From the NCBI GenBank assembly GCA_027460615.1, contig JAPZAO010000007.1:1-33065 (forward strand): a stretch of DNA of 33,065 nucleotides, in the 5' to 3' direction. This DNA is from Candidatus Methanoperedens sp. (GTDB lineage: Archaea > Halobacteriota > Methanosarcinia > Methanosarcinales > Methanoperedenaceae). Both the position numbers and the translations under genes were made by a program. Shown here in pieces: positions 26,618-32,572 of the stretch. Numbering within the stretch: the first letter of the stretch is position 1; the number at the start of each line of letters is the position of its first letter. Under the pieces are notes generated by a model. The model was not told the origin of the DNA. It worked only from the letters and a program-made list of their open reading frames with translations, and did no database searches.

Positions 26618-28414
26618 TTAGTCATCCTTTTGTTTATCCTTTTTGTTCTTGTTGGTTGTACCTTTGTTCACTTGTGTGTTGGTATGTACTACTGTGTTAG
26701 TATGTACTATTGTGTTGGTGTGGTCTATTTTGTTGTTGGTATGCTCTACTGTGTTGGTGTGCTCAATCGTGTTGTTATGCTCATGTGTGTTATTGTGCTC
26801 TTGCTCGTGCTGTTGTTCGTTCTCTTCTTGCTCATCCTCTTGCACGTGATGTTGCTCGTCCTCGTCTTCCTCTTCTAGCTCATGTGTGTTATTGTGCGGT
26901 GCTCTTACCGATACGATTGCACTTCCGTTGATTGTGCCGTTTGATGCGGTTATAGTGGTAGTTCCTGCTGATAATGCCGTGAACTTGCCTGAGGCATCGA
27001 TGGTACCAACTGTCGGGTTGCTGCTCACCCATGTAAATATTGCCGAGATGATGTTGCCCAGCTGGTCAAATGCAGTGGCTGTAAATGTCTGTGTGCCGTT
27101 TACTTTTAACGACTTTTTTGGGGGTGAGACTTTTATAGTTGTCAGTGCCGATGTTCCTGGAGCTGTTACAGTTGCACTTGCCATTCCGAGGACAGTTCCA
27201 TCAGTTCCATTTGAGGCGATTATTGTTGTTATTCCTGCTTCAAGTGCTGTAAACACGCCTGTGGTTGAATTGATTATTCCCACGGTGGTGTTGCTGCTGC
27301 TCCAAACCGCTGCAGGACCAATCGATATGGAACCGCCGTTCTGGTCAAAACCTGCTGCCGTAAAGGTCTGTGTTCCGCCCACTACTTTCGATGTTGTTGA
27401 GGGTGAGACCGTTATGGTTGTCAGTACCGGTGTCAGAGTTACAGTTACACTTGCCGTTCCGCTGACAGTTCCACCTGTTCCATTGGTGGCAGTTATAGTT
27501 GTCGTTCCTGCTTCAAGTGCTGTAAACACGCCTGCAGAATTGATTGTCCCAACTGTGGTATTGCTGCTGCTCCAAACCACTGCGGGGCTAATCGTTATGG
27601 AACCGCCGTTCTGGTCAAAACCTGCTGCCGTAAAGGTCTGTGTTCCGCCCACTACTTTCGATGCTGTTGTGGGTGAGACCGTTATGGTTGTCAGTACCGG
27701 TGTCAGAGTTACAGTTACACTTGCCGTTCCGCTGACAGTTCCACTCGTTCCGTTCTTGGCTGTTATAGTTGTCGTTCCTGATGCAAGTGCATTGAATGCG
27801 CCTGTGGTTGGATTGATTGTTCCAACTGTGGTGTTGCTGCTGCTCCAAAACACTGCCGGGCTAATCGATATGGAACCGCCGTTCTGGTCAGAACCATTTG
27901 CCGTAAAGGTCTGTGTTTCACCAACTACTTTCGATGCTGTGAGGGGTGAAACCGTTATGGTTGTCAGTACCGGTGTCGGCGCTGCCTGCACTGTAATCGT
28001 AATATCTTTAAAGTTGGTTATTGGACCACCTGATTTTGTGGAAGCATAAACCGTAACTTTATAAGTACCTGCAGCCGAAGGTGCTGTTAAAGTTGTTGTT
28101 CCTGTTCCGCTACCGCTGACAATAACTCCACCTGAAGGAATGCCAAAAAGCGCATTATCATTTACTACTGACGGCCATTTTGCTGTCGCGCCTGATGGGC
28201 TCCAGGTTACAGTTACAACAAAACTCTCTCCTGGCGTTACTGTCGTTTTTGGGGTTGTTGCGGTGATGCTAACACTACTCGAAAGAGTATGGCAGCCAGT
28301 GCATGCAACATCCTCTGACGGGTATGCTGATGCTCCTGATACAACCACCAGAGCCGCTATTAAAAGCAGCATCCCAATTTTCAATTTATTGTTCATTTGT
28401 TTTTTCCTATTCAT
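26618..28414 (-). CDS. Secreted Ig-like repeat protein with one CxxCH haem site and a His/Thr/Asn-rich tail
   Basis: This is a 598-residue exported protein. A signal peptide (about 1-30, LLLIAALVVVSGASA) is followed by CTGCH at 38-42, a c-type haem attachment motif right after the cleavage site. A beta domain (45-150) begins TATTPKTTVTPGESFVVTVT. Four Big2-type Ig repeats of about 85-91 residues follow, each starting LTTI-x-VSP and containing WSSSN-TTVG. The tail (about 505-598) is first acidic, then rich in HNNTH and HTNT repeats, ending in Lys/Asp. No membrane anchor is seen. ATG 28414 has GGAG 7 bases before it; the upstream extension to 28471 is not needed. It may be a surface or extracellular redox or adhesin protein. 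Confidence 0.85.
   Translation of the reverse strand: MNRKKQMNNKLKIGMLLLIAALVVVSGASAYPSEDVACTGCHTLSSSVSITATTPKTTVTPGESFVVTVTWSPSGATAKWPSVVNDNALFGIPSGGVIVSGSGTGTTTLTAPSAAGTYKVTVYASTKSGGPITNFKDITITVQAAPTPVLTTITVSPLTASKVVGETQTFTANGSDQNGGSISISPAVFWSSSNTTVGTINPTTGAFNALASGTTTITAKNGTSGTVSGTASVTVTLTPVLTTITVSPTTASKVVGGTQTFTAAGFDQNGGSITISPAVVWSSSNTTVGTINSAGVFTALEAGTTTITATNGTGGTVSGTASVTVTLTPVLTTITVSPSTTSKVVGGTQTFTAAGFDQNGGSISIGPAAVWSSSNTTVGIINSTTGVFTALEAGITTIIASNGTDGTVLGMASATVTAPGTSALTTIKVSPPKKSLKVNGTQTFTATAFDQLGNIISAIFTWVSSNPTVGTIDASGKFTALSAGTTTITASNGTINGSAIVSVRAPHNNTHELEEEDEDEQHHVQEDEQEENEQQHEQEHNNTHEHNNTIEHTNTVEHTNNKIDHTNTIVHTNTVVHTNTQVNKGTTNKNKKDKQKDD
26671..26800. repeat. 18-bp tandem repeats encoding the HTNT tail
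   Basis: Plus-strand units of the type GTGTTGGTATGTACTACT recur about seven times at 18-bp spacing, encoding the 6-residue unit H-T-N-T-x-V. Such a repeat can vary in copy number. Confidence 0.65.
27160..27970. repeat. Three near-identical 270-273 bp tandem units coding Ig repeats
   Basis: The landmark AACCGCCGTTCTGGTCA recurs at 27331, 27601 and 27874 (the last with one base changed at its end), giving 270- and 273-bp periods. The high DNA identity points to recent duplication or ongoing recombination. Confidence 0.8.
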
Positions 28415-28503
28415 TCTTTTTCTCCTATCTGCCTGCTTGAGATGCAATAAGGCATCTTTGCAGATTACCAATAGTATAACAATTGCTAATTTAACGATAC
28501 TGA

Positions 28504-28718: not shown

Positions 28719-28871
28719 ATGGCAAAAGCCGTTAGAATAGAATCGTTGACGGGATATAGGAGGAAACTACTTCGGCTTTTGCCTAATCATATTACGTCAA
28801 TTGACGATTTAAACTTTACGGGTAGGTTAAACAAGTGGAAATTCATGCCCGCAATAAGGACACATTATTAG
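28719..28871 (+). CDS. Doubtful 50-codon ORF containing an 11-bp inverted repeat
   Basis: ATG 28719 opens a 50-residue basic reading frame (MAKAVRIESLTGYRRKLLRL at its start) with a weak GGAA site and a TATA-like TTTAATATC about 30 bp upstream. Its last 45 bases overlap the FeoB-coupled Cys-rich gene on the other strand. Arms GGCAAAAGCCG (28721-28731) and CGGCTTTTGCC (28773-28783) form a perfect inverted repeat inside it. It could be a structured RNA, a mobile-element end or a small gene. I do not recognise it. Confidence 0.2.
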   Translation: MAKAVRIESLTGYRRKLLRLLPNHITSIDDLNFTGRLNKWKFMPAIRTHY

Positions 28872-28958
28872 CCCGCATCTCATGAAACGCGGGCAAACCT
28901 TGCAGGCATCACAGCCCATTGCACCAAATCCGGCTCCGCAAAGAGGGCGTGTTCTCAT
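28827..28958 (-). CDS. 43-residue Cys-rich zinc-ribbon protein coupled to FeoB
   Basis: This very small protein has seven cysteines (7, 16, 19, 22, 28, 33, 36) and His38. It ends in CPYCGHEF, a zinc-ribbon knuckle, and has CDACKVC in the middle. Its ATG overlaps the feoB stop as ATGA, so it is translated by coupling; the reading frame upstream of this ATG inside feoB is a shadow. The position recalls the small partner proteins found behind feoB in bacteria (FeoC, or Cys-rich FeoB-associated proteins), but the sequence is not a clear match to either. It may bind iron, zinc or an Fe-S cluster at the transporter. Confidence 0.7.
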   Translation of the reverse strand: MRTRPLCGAGFGAMGCDACKVCPRFMRCGLIMCPYCGHEFPLV

Positions 28959-30961
28959 AAGAGGTGATAATATCCGATAACCTGATTGGCAACTCCTCCG
29001 ATAAGTATTGCAAGAATTATCGTGAATATCATAATCCCGAATGCCCGCTTCCAGCCAAGCTCGCGGCCAAGGACAGCGATAGTAGCAACGCACGGGATAT
29101 AAATCGTGTTAACAAGGGCATACACGAATAACTGGGCAGGCTTCATGAAAAGAAGAAGGTTCTTTGCGCCGCCCCCGTACATGACAACCGCAAGCGTTAC
29201 AAGCAGCTGGAGCGCAAGTTCCTTCCGGAGTACGGCAAATATCAGCGTAAGCCCTGCAACGGCGGGAAGCCCGAGCCACCCCACGACTACCGGGGATAAC
29301 GGTGCTGCCAGTTTCCAGATATAGCCGGTTTCATAAAGCGCCCCCAGAAAAAGAGAGCCGGCAAGCACAATCGGGAATGCCACGAACACGAAATCCTTGA
29401 ACCTGTACCACGTCTTCTTGATGATATTCGACATCAAGGGCATCCTGAAGGGGAACATCTCCATAACAAGCCCTGTGGAACTGCCGGGCATTACTTTGTT
29501 CAGCCCGACGCCCACGAGAAACACAAGCGCTAGCACGATGACGTATATCGCCACCGCAGGCTTCCATCCCACGAGCAGTGAAACCGCGCCCAGAATGACA
29601 GCAGTGCGGGCGCTGCAAGGGATGAGCGTGATGAGGGTGCTGGCTATCGTCCGCTCGCGCATCGTGGTCAATACCCGCGTGCCTATGATGGCTGGCACGT
29701 TGCATCCTGCGCCTGCCACAAGCGGGATAATGGCGCGCCCGTGAAGCCCGAACTTGTGCATCAGCCTGTCTGTCAGGAATGCGACCGAGTTCAGGTAACC
29801 CGAATCCTCAAGGAATGCGAGCATGAAATAGAAGGTGAGCACGTAGGGAATCCCGACGGAAAGTGCGGCAAGGATGCCGGCGTCAAAGCCCCATATGAGG
29901 GTTTTACCTACAAGCCCTGCCCCGAATATATAAAATATTGAGCCATCGATGACAGGCGACATATACAATGCCCAGAGACTGCTGAATAAATTGGAAAGCC
30001 AGTTGCCGCCGTAAAACATGAAAGCAAATATTACTCCAAGAACACAGATGAGAAGAGGTATGCCCGTCAGAGGCGATGTGGTGTATGCCCAGAGCTTATC
30101 CGACCTTGCAGGTGTGGCATCACCCTGCACCTGCGAGGCTACTGTTCCTGCAAGACCATGCCGTTCGCGGGCAATCCGGAGAGGTGATTTTTCGCCATGT
30201 TTTTCTTCGATATCCCGGCTGATTTTATTTGCCTCTTCGAGAATGGAATTTCCATTTGCGTGTTTCTTTACAAGTTCTATGAATTCAGAATCATCTTCAA
30301 GAAGCAGTATTGCCAGAGCCCTCGGATTTATTCCGAAATAATAAGGTGAAAGTAAATCGCCAAGCTTTTTTATGCTGGCTTCAATATCCCCGCCGTAGTG
30401 AATATCGTATTTGATTTTCTGTCTTTGTCCTGCAACATCTACGGCTTTTTGTACCAGTTCATCAAGGCCGCTGCCTGTGGTGGCGATTGTTTTTACCACG
30501 GGGACACCAAGAAGCTGGGAAAGCAGGGGCGCATCGATTATAATATTCCTTTTCTCTGCCTCGTCTATCAGGTTCAATGCAACCACAAGCGGAATCCCGA
30601 GGTCAATGAACTGGAGCGTCATGTAGAGGTTCCTGGCAAGGTTCGTGGCGTCAAGAATCATGATCGCAGCATCTGGTTTACAATCGAGCACAGCCCTTCG
30701 GGCAACCCACTGGTCTTCTGACACCGCGCCGAGGGCATAGCTTCCGGGAAGGTCGATTATGCCGATGCGAAGGGCTTTAAAAGTCGTTGTGGCCATATTC
30801 AGTTCCACGGTCTTTCCCGGATAGTTGGCGGTCACAACACCCATTCCTGTGAGGCGGTTGAATATACTGGATTTACCCACATTGGGGTTACCCGCAAGCG
30901 CAAACGTAAAATCCGTATTGCCCTTTATTTCATTGAGGGCGCCGTGACATGAAAGAGCCAT
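28955..30961 (-). CDS. feoB: Ferrous iron transporter B
   Basis: This 668-residue G-protein-coupled permease imports Fe(II). The N-terminal GTPase has G1 GNPNVGKS at 24-31, the G2-region threonine in NYPGKTVE, G3 DLPGSYALG and G4 NLID. A helical guanine-dissociation-inhibitor-type spacer follows (about 180-270). The membrane part has about eight helices and two Gate-type segments (VPYVLTFYFMLAFLEDSGYL with GAGCNVPAIIGTR, and the second half). An early CH pair (SCHG at 4-7) is typical. It is preceded 1 bp upstream by the DtxR-FeoA gene and followed by the coupled Cys-rich gene. No separate feoA gene is present; the FeoA domain is fused to the regulator. Confidence 0.96.
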   Translation of the reverse strand: MALSCHGALNEIKGNTDFTFALAGNPNVGKSSIFNRLTGMGVVTANYPGKTVELNMATTTFKALRIGIIDLPGSYALGAVSEDQWVARRAVLDCKPDAAIMILDATNLARNLYMTLQFIDLGIPLVVALNLIDEAEKRNIIIDAPLLSQLLGVPVVKTIATTGSGLDELVQKAVDVAGQRQKIKYDIHYGGDIEASIKKLGDLLSPYYFGINPRALAILLLEDDSEFIELVKKHANGNSILEEANKISRDIEEKHGEKSPLRIARERHGLAGTVASQVQGDATPARSDKLWAYTTSPLTGIPLLICVLGVIFAFMFYGGNWLSNLFSSLWALYMSPVIDGSIFYIFGAGLVGKTLIWGFDAGILAALSVGIPYVLTFYFMLAFLEDSGYLNSVAFLTDRLMHKFGLHGRAIIPLVAGAGCNVPAIIGTRVLTTMRERTIASTLITLIPCSARTAVILGAVSLLVGWKPAVAIYVIVLALVFLVGVGLNKVMPGSSTGLVMEMFPFRMPLMSNIIKKTWYRFKDFVFVAFPIVLAGSLFLGALYETGYIWKLAAPLSPVVVGWLGLPAVAGLTLIFAVLRKELALQLLVTLAVVMYGGGAKNLLLFMKPAQLFVYALVNTIYIPCVATIAVLGRELGWKRAFGIMIFTIILAILIGGVANQVIGYYHLL

Positions 30962-30962
30962 T

Positions 30963-31613
30963 TCATTTTACCTTTATCTTTGAAGCCACTTCTCTTCCCA
31001 GGGCATACCGGGAACCTGCAACGCACACGATTAAAGGACCTCCGAAGGGCGCAACTTCTTCCACTTCTACGCACACATCAGGAATCAGTCCGAGCGAGGC
31101 GAGGTACTGGAGCATTTTCGGGTCTTCTTCAAACACACTGACGATAATCCCCTTATCCCCGGCTTTTAATTCCGATAACGGCCTGACTGTTTCTTTTACA
31201 AATACGCCGTCCTTATCAGGTATGGGATGACCGTGCGGGCATGTCCTGGGGTTTCCGAGGCTCTCTGCAATGCGGTCTTCCATCTCAGGACTTATCGCGT
31301 GTTCAAGCCTGCACGCCTCATCGTGCACCTCGTCCCATTTGAAGCCCAGGATATCGGTAAGTAATCGCTCGGAAAGGCGGTGTCTCCGTATGACTTTCTT
31401 GGCGATATTGCTTCCTTCTTCAGTCAGGCATACGCCTTTTTCTATCTGGTTTACAAGACCTTTCTGCGCCAGTTTTTTCACCATCTCGGATACGGACGGC
31501 GGTGAGAGTTTCAGATGTTCTGCAAGACGGGATGTGCTCACTGGATGCTGTTCCTGCTGGAGTTTGTAGATTGATTCAAGATATTCCTCAATCCTGGAGG
31601 TATCAGCTTCCAT
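30963..31613 (-). CDS. DtxR/IdeR-family iron regulator with FeoA-like SH3 domain
   Basis: This 216-residue metal-dependent repressor has a winged helix at 1-65 (STSRLAEHLKLSPPSVSEMV), a dimerisation/metal domain at 70-130 and a C-terminal FeoA/SH3-like domain at 143-216. Metal ligands line up with DtxR at an offset of one: His78, Glu82 and His97 (ancillary site), and Cys101, Glu104 and His105 (primary site). The Cys at the position of DtxR Cys102 is typical of iron rather than manganese regulators. GGTGA within the FTR1 stop region serves the ATG. It probably represses the FTR1-dtxR-feoB operon through the palindrome upstream of FTR1. Confidence 0.92.
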   Translation of the reverse strand: MEADTSRIEEYLESIYKLQQEQHPVSTSRLAEHLKLSPPSVSEMVKKLAQKGLVNQIEKGVCLTEEGSNIAKKVIRRHRLSERLLTDILGFKWDEVHDEACRLEHAISPEMEDRIAESLGNPRTCPHGHPIPDKDGVFVKETVRPLSELKAGDKGIIVSVFEEDPKMLQYLASLGLIPDVCVEVEEVAPFGGPLIVCVAGSRYALGREVASKIKVK

Positions 31614-31614
31614 G

Positions 31615-32454
31615 TCATCTCACCTTTTCCTGTACTTTGAAAGACCTGTAAACAAACACTCCGATAATTATCCAGTAACCGATATACGAAAGTGCCATTG
31701 TCAGTGAAGGGGCTGCGTGATAGCCAATAAGCGAGCTCAGGCCGCCTCCGATAAGACCATTCTCATGAAGAAGAGGATAAGAGCCGTCAGGGTTCTGTGG
31801 GGGGTTCAAGTCCCACACATGCTCTATTACGGGGGGTATGATTCCCACTTCGTTGAATTCACCAACGGCGGTAGCTATCAGCCCGGCTGAGAACAATATC
31901 AGCAGTATGCTTGTATATTTGAAAAATTTGGTTACGTCAAGGCTGTGCATTCCTTTGAACATGACAAACGACATAAAGACCACAACCCCAAGCCCGGCAG
32001 CAAAACCGAGAAGCGTATCAAATGGTGACTGGATAGCAAGCGTTCCAAGAAACAGGACAGTCTCAACCCCTTCCCTGAATACGGCGATAAAGGAGAGGGC
32101 TGCAATTCCCATGGTCTGGCCTTTCGATATTGAGAGGTCTATCTTTTCCTGGACTTCCCCTTTTATCTGTTTTGAATTCTGCGCCATCCAGAAAATCATG
32201 TAGGTCAATACAACGGCAGCGGCAAGAGCGGCGGCGCCTTCGAACAGTTGCTCCGCCGTTCCCTGAAGTTCCCCATATACTAATTTGAATACGAGCGCAA
32301 CCCCGATACTTGCGATAACCGCGCCGATTATCCCGGTGTAGATGTAACGATTGAGGTCTTTTCTGCCTATTTTTGCGACATAAGCCGCGATTATTCCGAT
32401 TATCAGGGCTGCTTCAAGCGCTTCCCTGAAGGTTATTAGAAAACTTGCTAACAT
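31615..32454 (-). CDS. FTR1-family iron permease
   Basis: This 279-residue membrane protein has about seven helices and two REXXE iron-binding motifs: REALE at 10-14 in FLITFREALEAALII and REGVE in FIAVFREGVETVLFLGT. These define the Ftr1/EfeU family, which takes up ferric or oxidised ferrous iron. An extracellular loop between the last helices carries NPPQNPDGSYPLLHENG. No EfeO or EfeB partner lies in the window. It is the first gene of the iron operon; the promoter holds a DtxR-like palindrome. Confidence 0.93.
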   Translation of the reverse strand: MLASFLITFREALEAALIIGIIAAYVAKIGRKDLNRYIYTGIIGAVIASIGVALVFKLVYGELQGTAEQLFEGAAALAAAVVLTYMIFWMAQNSKQIKGEVQEKIDLSISKGQTMGIAALSFIAVFREGVETVLFLGTLAIQSPFDTLLGFAAGLGVVVFMSFVMFKGMHSLDVTKFFKYTSILLILFSAGLIATAVGEFNEVGIIPPVIEHVWDLNPPQNPDGSYPLLHENGLIGGGLSSLIGYHAAPSLTMALSYIGYWIIIGVFVYRSFKVQEKVR

Positions 32455-32475: not shown

Positions 32476-32489
32476 TTAGGTATACCTAA
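32476..32489. promoter_or_regulatory. DtxR-like operator of the iron operon
   Basis: TTAGGTATACCTAA is a perfect 14-bp palindrome 22-35 bp before the FTR1 ATG, at the predicted transcription start. It shares the TTAGG/CCTAA arms of known DtxR-family operators. TAGG and CCTA half sites follow at 32494-32510. The TATA box (minus strand CTTTATAGG) is at 32507-32515. Confidence 0.7.
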
Positions 32490-32572
32490 CTTGTAGGTTT
32501 TGTTAGCCTATAAAGATTTCGGTGAGTTATTATTTGGAAATTCACATATAATCTATAATCCATCCGCCCAGC

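Follow-up and report, generated by a model that had tools for sequence, protein, structure and literature searches.

A Conserved Gene for a Small, Predicted Zinc-Ribbon Protein Directly Follows feoB in Candidatus Methanoperedens and in Diverse Archaea and Bacteria

A 33,065-nt stretch of a Candidatus Methanoperedens sp. assembly (contig JAPZAO010000007.1, positions 1–33,065; hereafter the window) carries, directly behind the iron transporter gene feoB, a gene for a 43-residue cysteine-rich protein. It is a real, easily overlooked gene and not a chance frame, and its product belongs to an apparently undescribed family of small FeoB-linked zinc-ribbon proteins with members in archaea and bacteria. 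Judging from sequence and gene neighborhood, we put the chances at about even that this protein resides in the cytosol, binds metal and serves FeoB as an accessory subunit, with a role similar to that of FeoC and an unrelated fold.

The gene occupies positions 28827–28958 of the minus strand, including its TAA stop codon, and encodes MRTRPLCGAGFGAMGCDACKVCPRFMRCGLIMCPYCGHEFPLV. The initial annotation had described a start codon overlapping the end of feoB, and indeed the ATG of the small gene and the TGA of feoB share a single ATGA (28955–28958, minus strand); translation of the two genes is probably coupled. No obvious Shine–Dalgarno sequence was seen just upstream of the start of the window copy. 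An 88-residue, GTG-started version reaching back into feoB, proposed by an ORF caller, was rejected: its start is not conserved, and it is unsupported because in relatives the start is the overlapping ATG or lies only a few bases beyond it. The zinc-ribbon-type end noted earlier is present as CPxCGxEF at the C terminus, and the expectation that annotation would tend to miss the gene holds insofar as it lacks a curated family name: no Pfam family model among the matches listed, and no NCBIfam model, names the protein.

The gene lies in a minus-strand operon ordered as FTR1 permease, DtxR–FeoA fusion, FeoB and zinc-ribbon gene, with 1-base gaps among the first three genes and the overlap between the last two. 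The first gene (31615–32454, minus strand) encodes a 279-residue FTR1/EfeU-type iron permease (PF03239, 167 bits). It is followed by the gene for a 216-residue DtxR-type regulator with a C-terminal FeoA domain (30963–31613, minus strand; PF01325, PF02742 and PF04023 above cut-off), whose closest NCBIfam models are MntR-like and far under their cut-offs. The 668-residue FeoB (28955–30961, minus strand) scored 426 bits against TIGR00437, with a cut-off of 316, and also matched PF02421, PF07664 and PF17910; it carries the pore motifs GAGCNVPAIIGTR and IPCSARTAVI and ends in ...YYHLL, immediately before the TGA within the ATGA. Elsewhere in the window, the minus strand encodes a putative exported 617-residue protein (26618–28471) with one N-terminal CxxCH haem-type motif, repeated Big-like domains and a His/Asn/Thr/Glu-rich low-complexity tail, and a long plus-strand antisense frame at 26886–28049 is probably a by-product of the composition of this gene.

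Upstream of the FTR1 start lies a perfect palindrome, TTAGGTATACCTAA (32476–32489, minus strand), a probable DtxR-type operator, with a probable archaeal TATA-box region (ctttatagg, 32507–32515, minus strand) just upstream of it; relatives are arranged alike. At one mismatch or fewer, 0.05 chance matches to the palindrome are expected in the window, and no second exact match was found in the genome assembly. The palindrome or a variant differing by 1–2 bases precedes the first operon gene at 18 of the 19 congeneric loci with upstream DNA, mostly at a distance of 31–55 nt from the start. TTAGG-type boxes are known for the DtxR family, and the palindrome is likely a site of autoregulation by the DtxR–FeoA protein, with either Fe2+ or Mn2+ as the possible signal.

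The 43-residue sequence was searched against 60 related genomes, 30 of them congeners (Methanoperedens-type). Strong matches (E-values from 2e-19 to 2e-8) were obtained in 23 of the congeners and in one other genome of the family, at loci assigned to Candidatus Methanoperedens, Methanoperedenaceae and uncultured archaea, and every one of these matches lay directly after feoB. Most start at the same ATGA, some about 5–10 nt past the feoB stop, and two follow a spacer of about 80–150 nt. A search of a plasmid collection returned a sole, irrelevant match inside dapF. Codon statistics indicate that the gene is under purifying selection: the median dN/dS was 0.14 (pairwise NG86, 55 unsaturated pairs), and codon-position entropy was 0.97 at third positions versus 0.41 and 0.32 at the others. 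The congeneric matches, the position after feoB and this selection confirm the earlier suggestion of a genuine gene, and its predicted conservation downstream of feoB is seen in the full-length copies of 22 of the 30 congeners.

An alignment of 46 FeoB-linked members yielded the pattern CP[L/F]CGxxF-x(n)-CxxCP-x(4)-C-x4-CPNCGxE. Six of the seven core cysteines are invariant among these members, and the seventh, C5, is absent from the window copy alone. The count of seven cysteines given initially for the window copy is correct, but only six of them belong to the family core; the additional C16 is a non-core residue common only to the closest relatives, L003, L004 and L006. The seven-core-cysteine pattern CxxC-CxxC-C-CxxC is accordingly present with six of its positions. 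Relative to ACACAATGCCCT in L004, the window sequence ACACGCCCT has a 3-nt deletion that removes C5, so that the second CPxCG knuckle is whole and the first is reduced to PLCG, whereas the cysteines of both knuckles are kept in 45 of the 46 members. We place the window copy in the family because of its homology (79–74% identity to L003/L004; 59.6 bits against the family profile) and its position, and not because of the seven-cysteine feature; with core C5 missing, it represents the family poorly.

The incomplete first knuckle may cost the window copy part of its function, and the deletion of C5 may also be a sequencing or assembly error. This copy may even be a decaying remnant with little or no function, a reading that we think rather unlikely and that is compatible with any interpretation of the family as a whole. 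The loss of C5 by a 3-nt deletion is unique among the 46 members, dN exceeds dS (0.089 against 0.043) in a comparison of few sites with the nearest relative L004, and the gene has been degraded or lost independently in about six congeners. On the other hand, the frame is intact, the ATGA overlap and the other six core cysteines are retained, and dN/dS is 0.42 in the comparison with L003 and lies under 0.4 for every other relative that gave a usable estimate, with few sites making the branch estimates noisy.

The congeners without a full-length gene differ in what is left of it. One copy is truncated by an internal deletion (G008), two genomes hold only remnants with feoB present (G009, G029), and in three (G015, G017, G030) nothing recognizable follows an intact FeoB that is 83–84% identical to that of the window; a window-type FeoB was not found in G025 and G028. 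Since feoB persists in the congeners that have lost the zinc-ribbon gene, the gene is accessory and is not needed for the retention of FeoB. Comparison of the FeoB proteins of the gene-losing congeners revealed no clear compensating residues, only conservative scattered changes. Such repeated loss beside a still conserved FeoB argues against the idea of a purely structural or stabilizing subunit, which would guard FeoB from turnover or help its assembly without any sensing. Overlapping start and stop codons would fit stoichiometric co-assembly, and Salmonella FeoC is reported to protect FeoB from proteolysis (PMC8749426); yet the invariant three-cysteine middle motif also exceeds the needs of a structural ribbon, and we consider this explanation quite unlikely.

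A scan of genome contigs with the first alignment recovered 66 loci, many of them outside Methanoperedens and with FeoB directly upstream. Archaeal homologues directly 3′ of feoB were found in Baldrarchaeota, Odinarchaeota, Hermodarchaeota, Helarchaeota, Desulfurococcales, Pyrodictiaceae, Thermoplasmatota and Methanolobus, and bacterial ones in Anaerolineales, Aquidulcis, Dehalococcoidia, Nitrospirae, Neomarinimicrobiota, Zixibacteria, Omnitrophota, Saganbacteria and Firestonebacteria. The feoB-adjoining homologues, which have the core CPxCGxxF-CxxCP-C-CPxCGxE, span Asgard archaea, Thermoproteota, Thermoplasmatota, Methanosarcinaceae, Chloroflexota, Nitrospirota, Marinimicrobia and others. With its bacterial members the family is not specifically archaeal and reaches further than the original proposal of an archaeal counterpart of FeoC supposed.

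Profile searches were performed on samples from five phyla, and tblastn was used to check for FeoB neighbors. Of 49 matches scoring above 55 bits, some of them seed sequences of the profile, 45 adjoined feoB on the same strand and immediately 3′ of it; at or below 55 bits, the proportion was 3 of 27. In the window's phylum the gene is a minority trait, with 17 matches above 55 bits in 247 genomes and FeoB-like matches in 199 of them. Of 78 loci, 46 showed an NTGA overlap, and at 20 others the gene started no more than 30 nt from the feoB stop, a few loci in this count being the same place counted twice. Where genomes carry several feoB genes, only one copy was accompanied by the zinc-ribbon gene in the cases inspected; in G049, for example, it accompanies the feoB at 1863489–1865336 and not the one at 2174379–2176172. 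No natural FeoB–zinc-ribbon fusion was seen, the long frames at some loci not being FeoB frames.

The four exceptions above 55 bits are Asgard homologues (L152, L159, L163, L164) that do not lie beside feoB. They are of Jordarchaeum type, one coming from a Jordarchaeum genome, and their conserved neighborhood contains genes for a small CxxC-containing HTH protein and a ThiF/MoeB-like protein, both named from sequence. A Halanaerobiales homologue (L078:3475-3711) lies between genes for a Fur-family and a Crp/Fnr-family regulator, likewise named from sequence. No FeoB was found next to a related class of small zinc ribbons (SYARAxSCxxC ... CPxCGHEF; L069, L070, L071, L074, L075, L086, L092, L096, L097) from Thermoproteota, Bathyarchaeota and Asgard archaea, which was excluded as a separate family.

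Two operon orders were observed: DtxR–FeoA, FeoB, zinc ribbon, as in the window, and FeoB, zinc ribbon, DtxR–FeoA, as in Methanosarcinaceae, Nitrospirota, Marinimicrobia, Dehalococcoidia and Pyrodictiaceae. The FeoB proteins of the two groups are only ~30% identical to each other. Because the zinc-ribbon gene directly follows feoB in both orders, its linkage is to FeoB rather than the regulator. This arrangement weighs against the possibility that the protein is a small transcription or translation factor regulating the feo operon together with DtxR–FeoA, in the way that Brz regulates bop in Halobacterium (PMC2253796). Brz itself demonstrates that a regulatory role is open to small CPxCG proteins, the C-terminal tail of group II members is basic, an HTH gene lies near the four Asgard homologues, and the Halanaerobiales homologue is flanked by Fur- and Crp-type regulators. 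Nevertheless, adjacency to feoB is kept whether DtxR–FeoA comes before, after or is not seen in the stretch, and the window-type protein is without the basic tail, which makes a regulatory factor very unlikely in our view.

When 83 FeoB membrane domains were placed in a maximum-likelihood tree, the presence of the zinc-ribbon gene required 3 changes, versus 18.8 for shuffled labels; the tree demonstrates clustering and not a single origin, because the FeoBs without the gene came solely from the window's phylum. Window-type partner FeoBs carry the pore motifs GxGCNVPAxxGTR and PCSARxxVI, the other partner group (L083, L094, L058 and many others) mostly GxGC[DAS]TMATxxTR and PCSAQLGxI, and FeoBs without the gene mostly GCNVPA with SC[SG]ARLP or PCSARTVII. 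The divergent GxGC[DAS]TMATxxTR subfamily may differ in metal specificity.

Among known systems, FeoC and the PF12669 proteins are described as feo accessories in a 2022 mBio study of Feo evolution (PMC8749426). Like FeoC (PF09012), the zinc-ribbon protein is small, predicted to be cytosolic and encoded 3′ of feoB in a feo operon, and its cysteine-rich motif makes it a candidate Fe–S or redox modulator of FeoB. FeoC, however, has a winged-helix fold and carries at most four cysteines at its C terminus, whereas the family consists of predicted zinc ribbons of ~45–60 residues with seven core cysteines; for the zinc-ribbon protein, binding to the FeoB cytosolic domain, as in FeoC, and a [4Fe-4S] cluster, as in FeoC of the E. 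coli type, are putative. PF12669 proteins are likewise small and cysteine-rich, encoded directly downstream of feoB and sometimes fused to FeoB (PMC8749426). They are membrane proteins with a Cx3-5Cx2-3Cx6-8C pattern, mainly from Firmicutes and Bacteroidetes, whereas the zinc-ribbon family has a CPxCG pattern, occurs in archaea and other bacteria, and shows no transmembrane segment (highest mean Kyte–Doolittle value over 19 residues, 0.88). Neither PF09012 nor PF12669 appeared among the matches listed for any family member. The zinc-ribbon protein is neither a FeoC nor a PF12669 protein, and FeoC-like is a fair functional analogy, not a statement of membership. Within the window, PF09012 scored 25.7 bits (cut-off 21) on the winged helix of the DtxR-type regulator (30963–31613); profile-based reports of archaeal FeoC therefore need care, and some of the reported proteins may be DtxR proteins.

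The haloarchaeal C(P)XCG micro-proteins (HVO_2753, HVO_0758, Brz) resemble the family in being tiny archaeal proteins with two CPxCG knuckles; they differ in lacking the additional CxxCPxxxxC, gave partial half-ribbon scores only, and have, to our knowledge, no operon link to feoB. Several of them have been shown to bind zinc (PMC11241148). Generic zinc-ribbon families (PF10571, PF12773 DZR, PF13717) matched as CPxCG half-ribbons with up to 30.8 bits (PF10571, one member), but the matches were mostly below curated cut-offs, mostly covered one knuckle and imply no function. The accessible portions of feo surveys in bacteria (PMC8749426) and methanogens (PMC8351635), and of another methanogen paper (PMC10846266), make no mention of the zinc-ribbon gene, and a full-text literature search combining FeoB with zinc ribbon or zinc finger returned nothing relevant, an earlier mention in subscription papers being possible.

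A zinc-ribbon fold is only moderately supported by structure prediction. The model of a longer member, L083, combines two CPxCG knuckles and short strands with a helix at the C terminus (pLDDT 70 on average and 83 in the knuckle blocks), while the AlphaFold model of the window protein was uninformative (pLDDT 50). A Foldseek search with the L083 model gave no significant hit (best E-value 0.8). Profile matches in the PDB, covering half a finger in designed C2H2 fingers and in rubredoxins, were judged compositional.

In the mechanism that we favor, an accessory subunit of FeoB, the feo operon would express the zinc-ribbon protein under the DtxR-type metal-responsive operator, with its synthesis coupled to FeoB translation. 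The paired CPxCG knuckles would hold one structural zinc, and the middle CxxCPxxxxC could use its three cysteines as a second site, holding Fe2+, Zn2+ or an Fe–S cluster. We favor docking of the protein on the cytosolic side of FeoB because of the cross-domain linkage to feoB, its retention in either operon order, the gene overlap and the clustering in the tree. Once docked, the protein may modulate or stabilize import according to metal or redox state, as proposed for FeoC; the role of a metal or Fe–S sensor suggested initially is thus a possible one, and sensing or gating of this kind is inferred. The same three-cysteine site could instead belong to an iron metallochaperone that would bind incoming Fe2+ where FeoB opens into the cytosol and pass it to Fe–S assembly. 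A gene directly behind that of the channel, a motif beyond a single zinc ribbon and an operon with a DtxR-type operator would all suit such a carrier, but CPxCG knuckles usually bind zinc structurally and transient Fe2+ carriers are rarely all-cysteine, so that we regard this role as unlikely.

Anaerobes import ferrous iron mainly through FeoB, whose control after synthesis is unsettled, and FeoC is absent from most feo operons. As a tentative extension of the accessory-subunit reading, one that we hold to be possible though rather improbable, the protein would be a cross-domain third Feo component that senses metal or redox state and thereby gates FeoB in two subfamilies, one of them with an altered pore motif (GC[DAS]TMAT...PCSAQLG instead of GCNVPA...SC[SG]ARLP) and possibly an altered metal preference; it could then be the missing post-translational regulator of Fe2+ uptake in many anaerobes without FeoC. 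Overall, this conserved, uncatalogued partner gene of feoB in archaea and bacteria provides a concrete candidate for the control of FeoB activity and connects it, in a testable way, to FeoB subfamilies whose pore motifs are unusual, and it suggests that small partner genes in feo operons have been overlooked.
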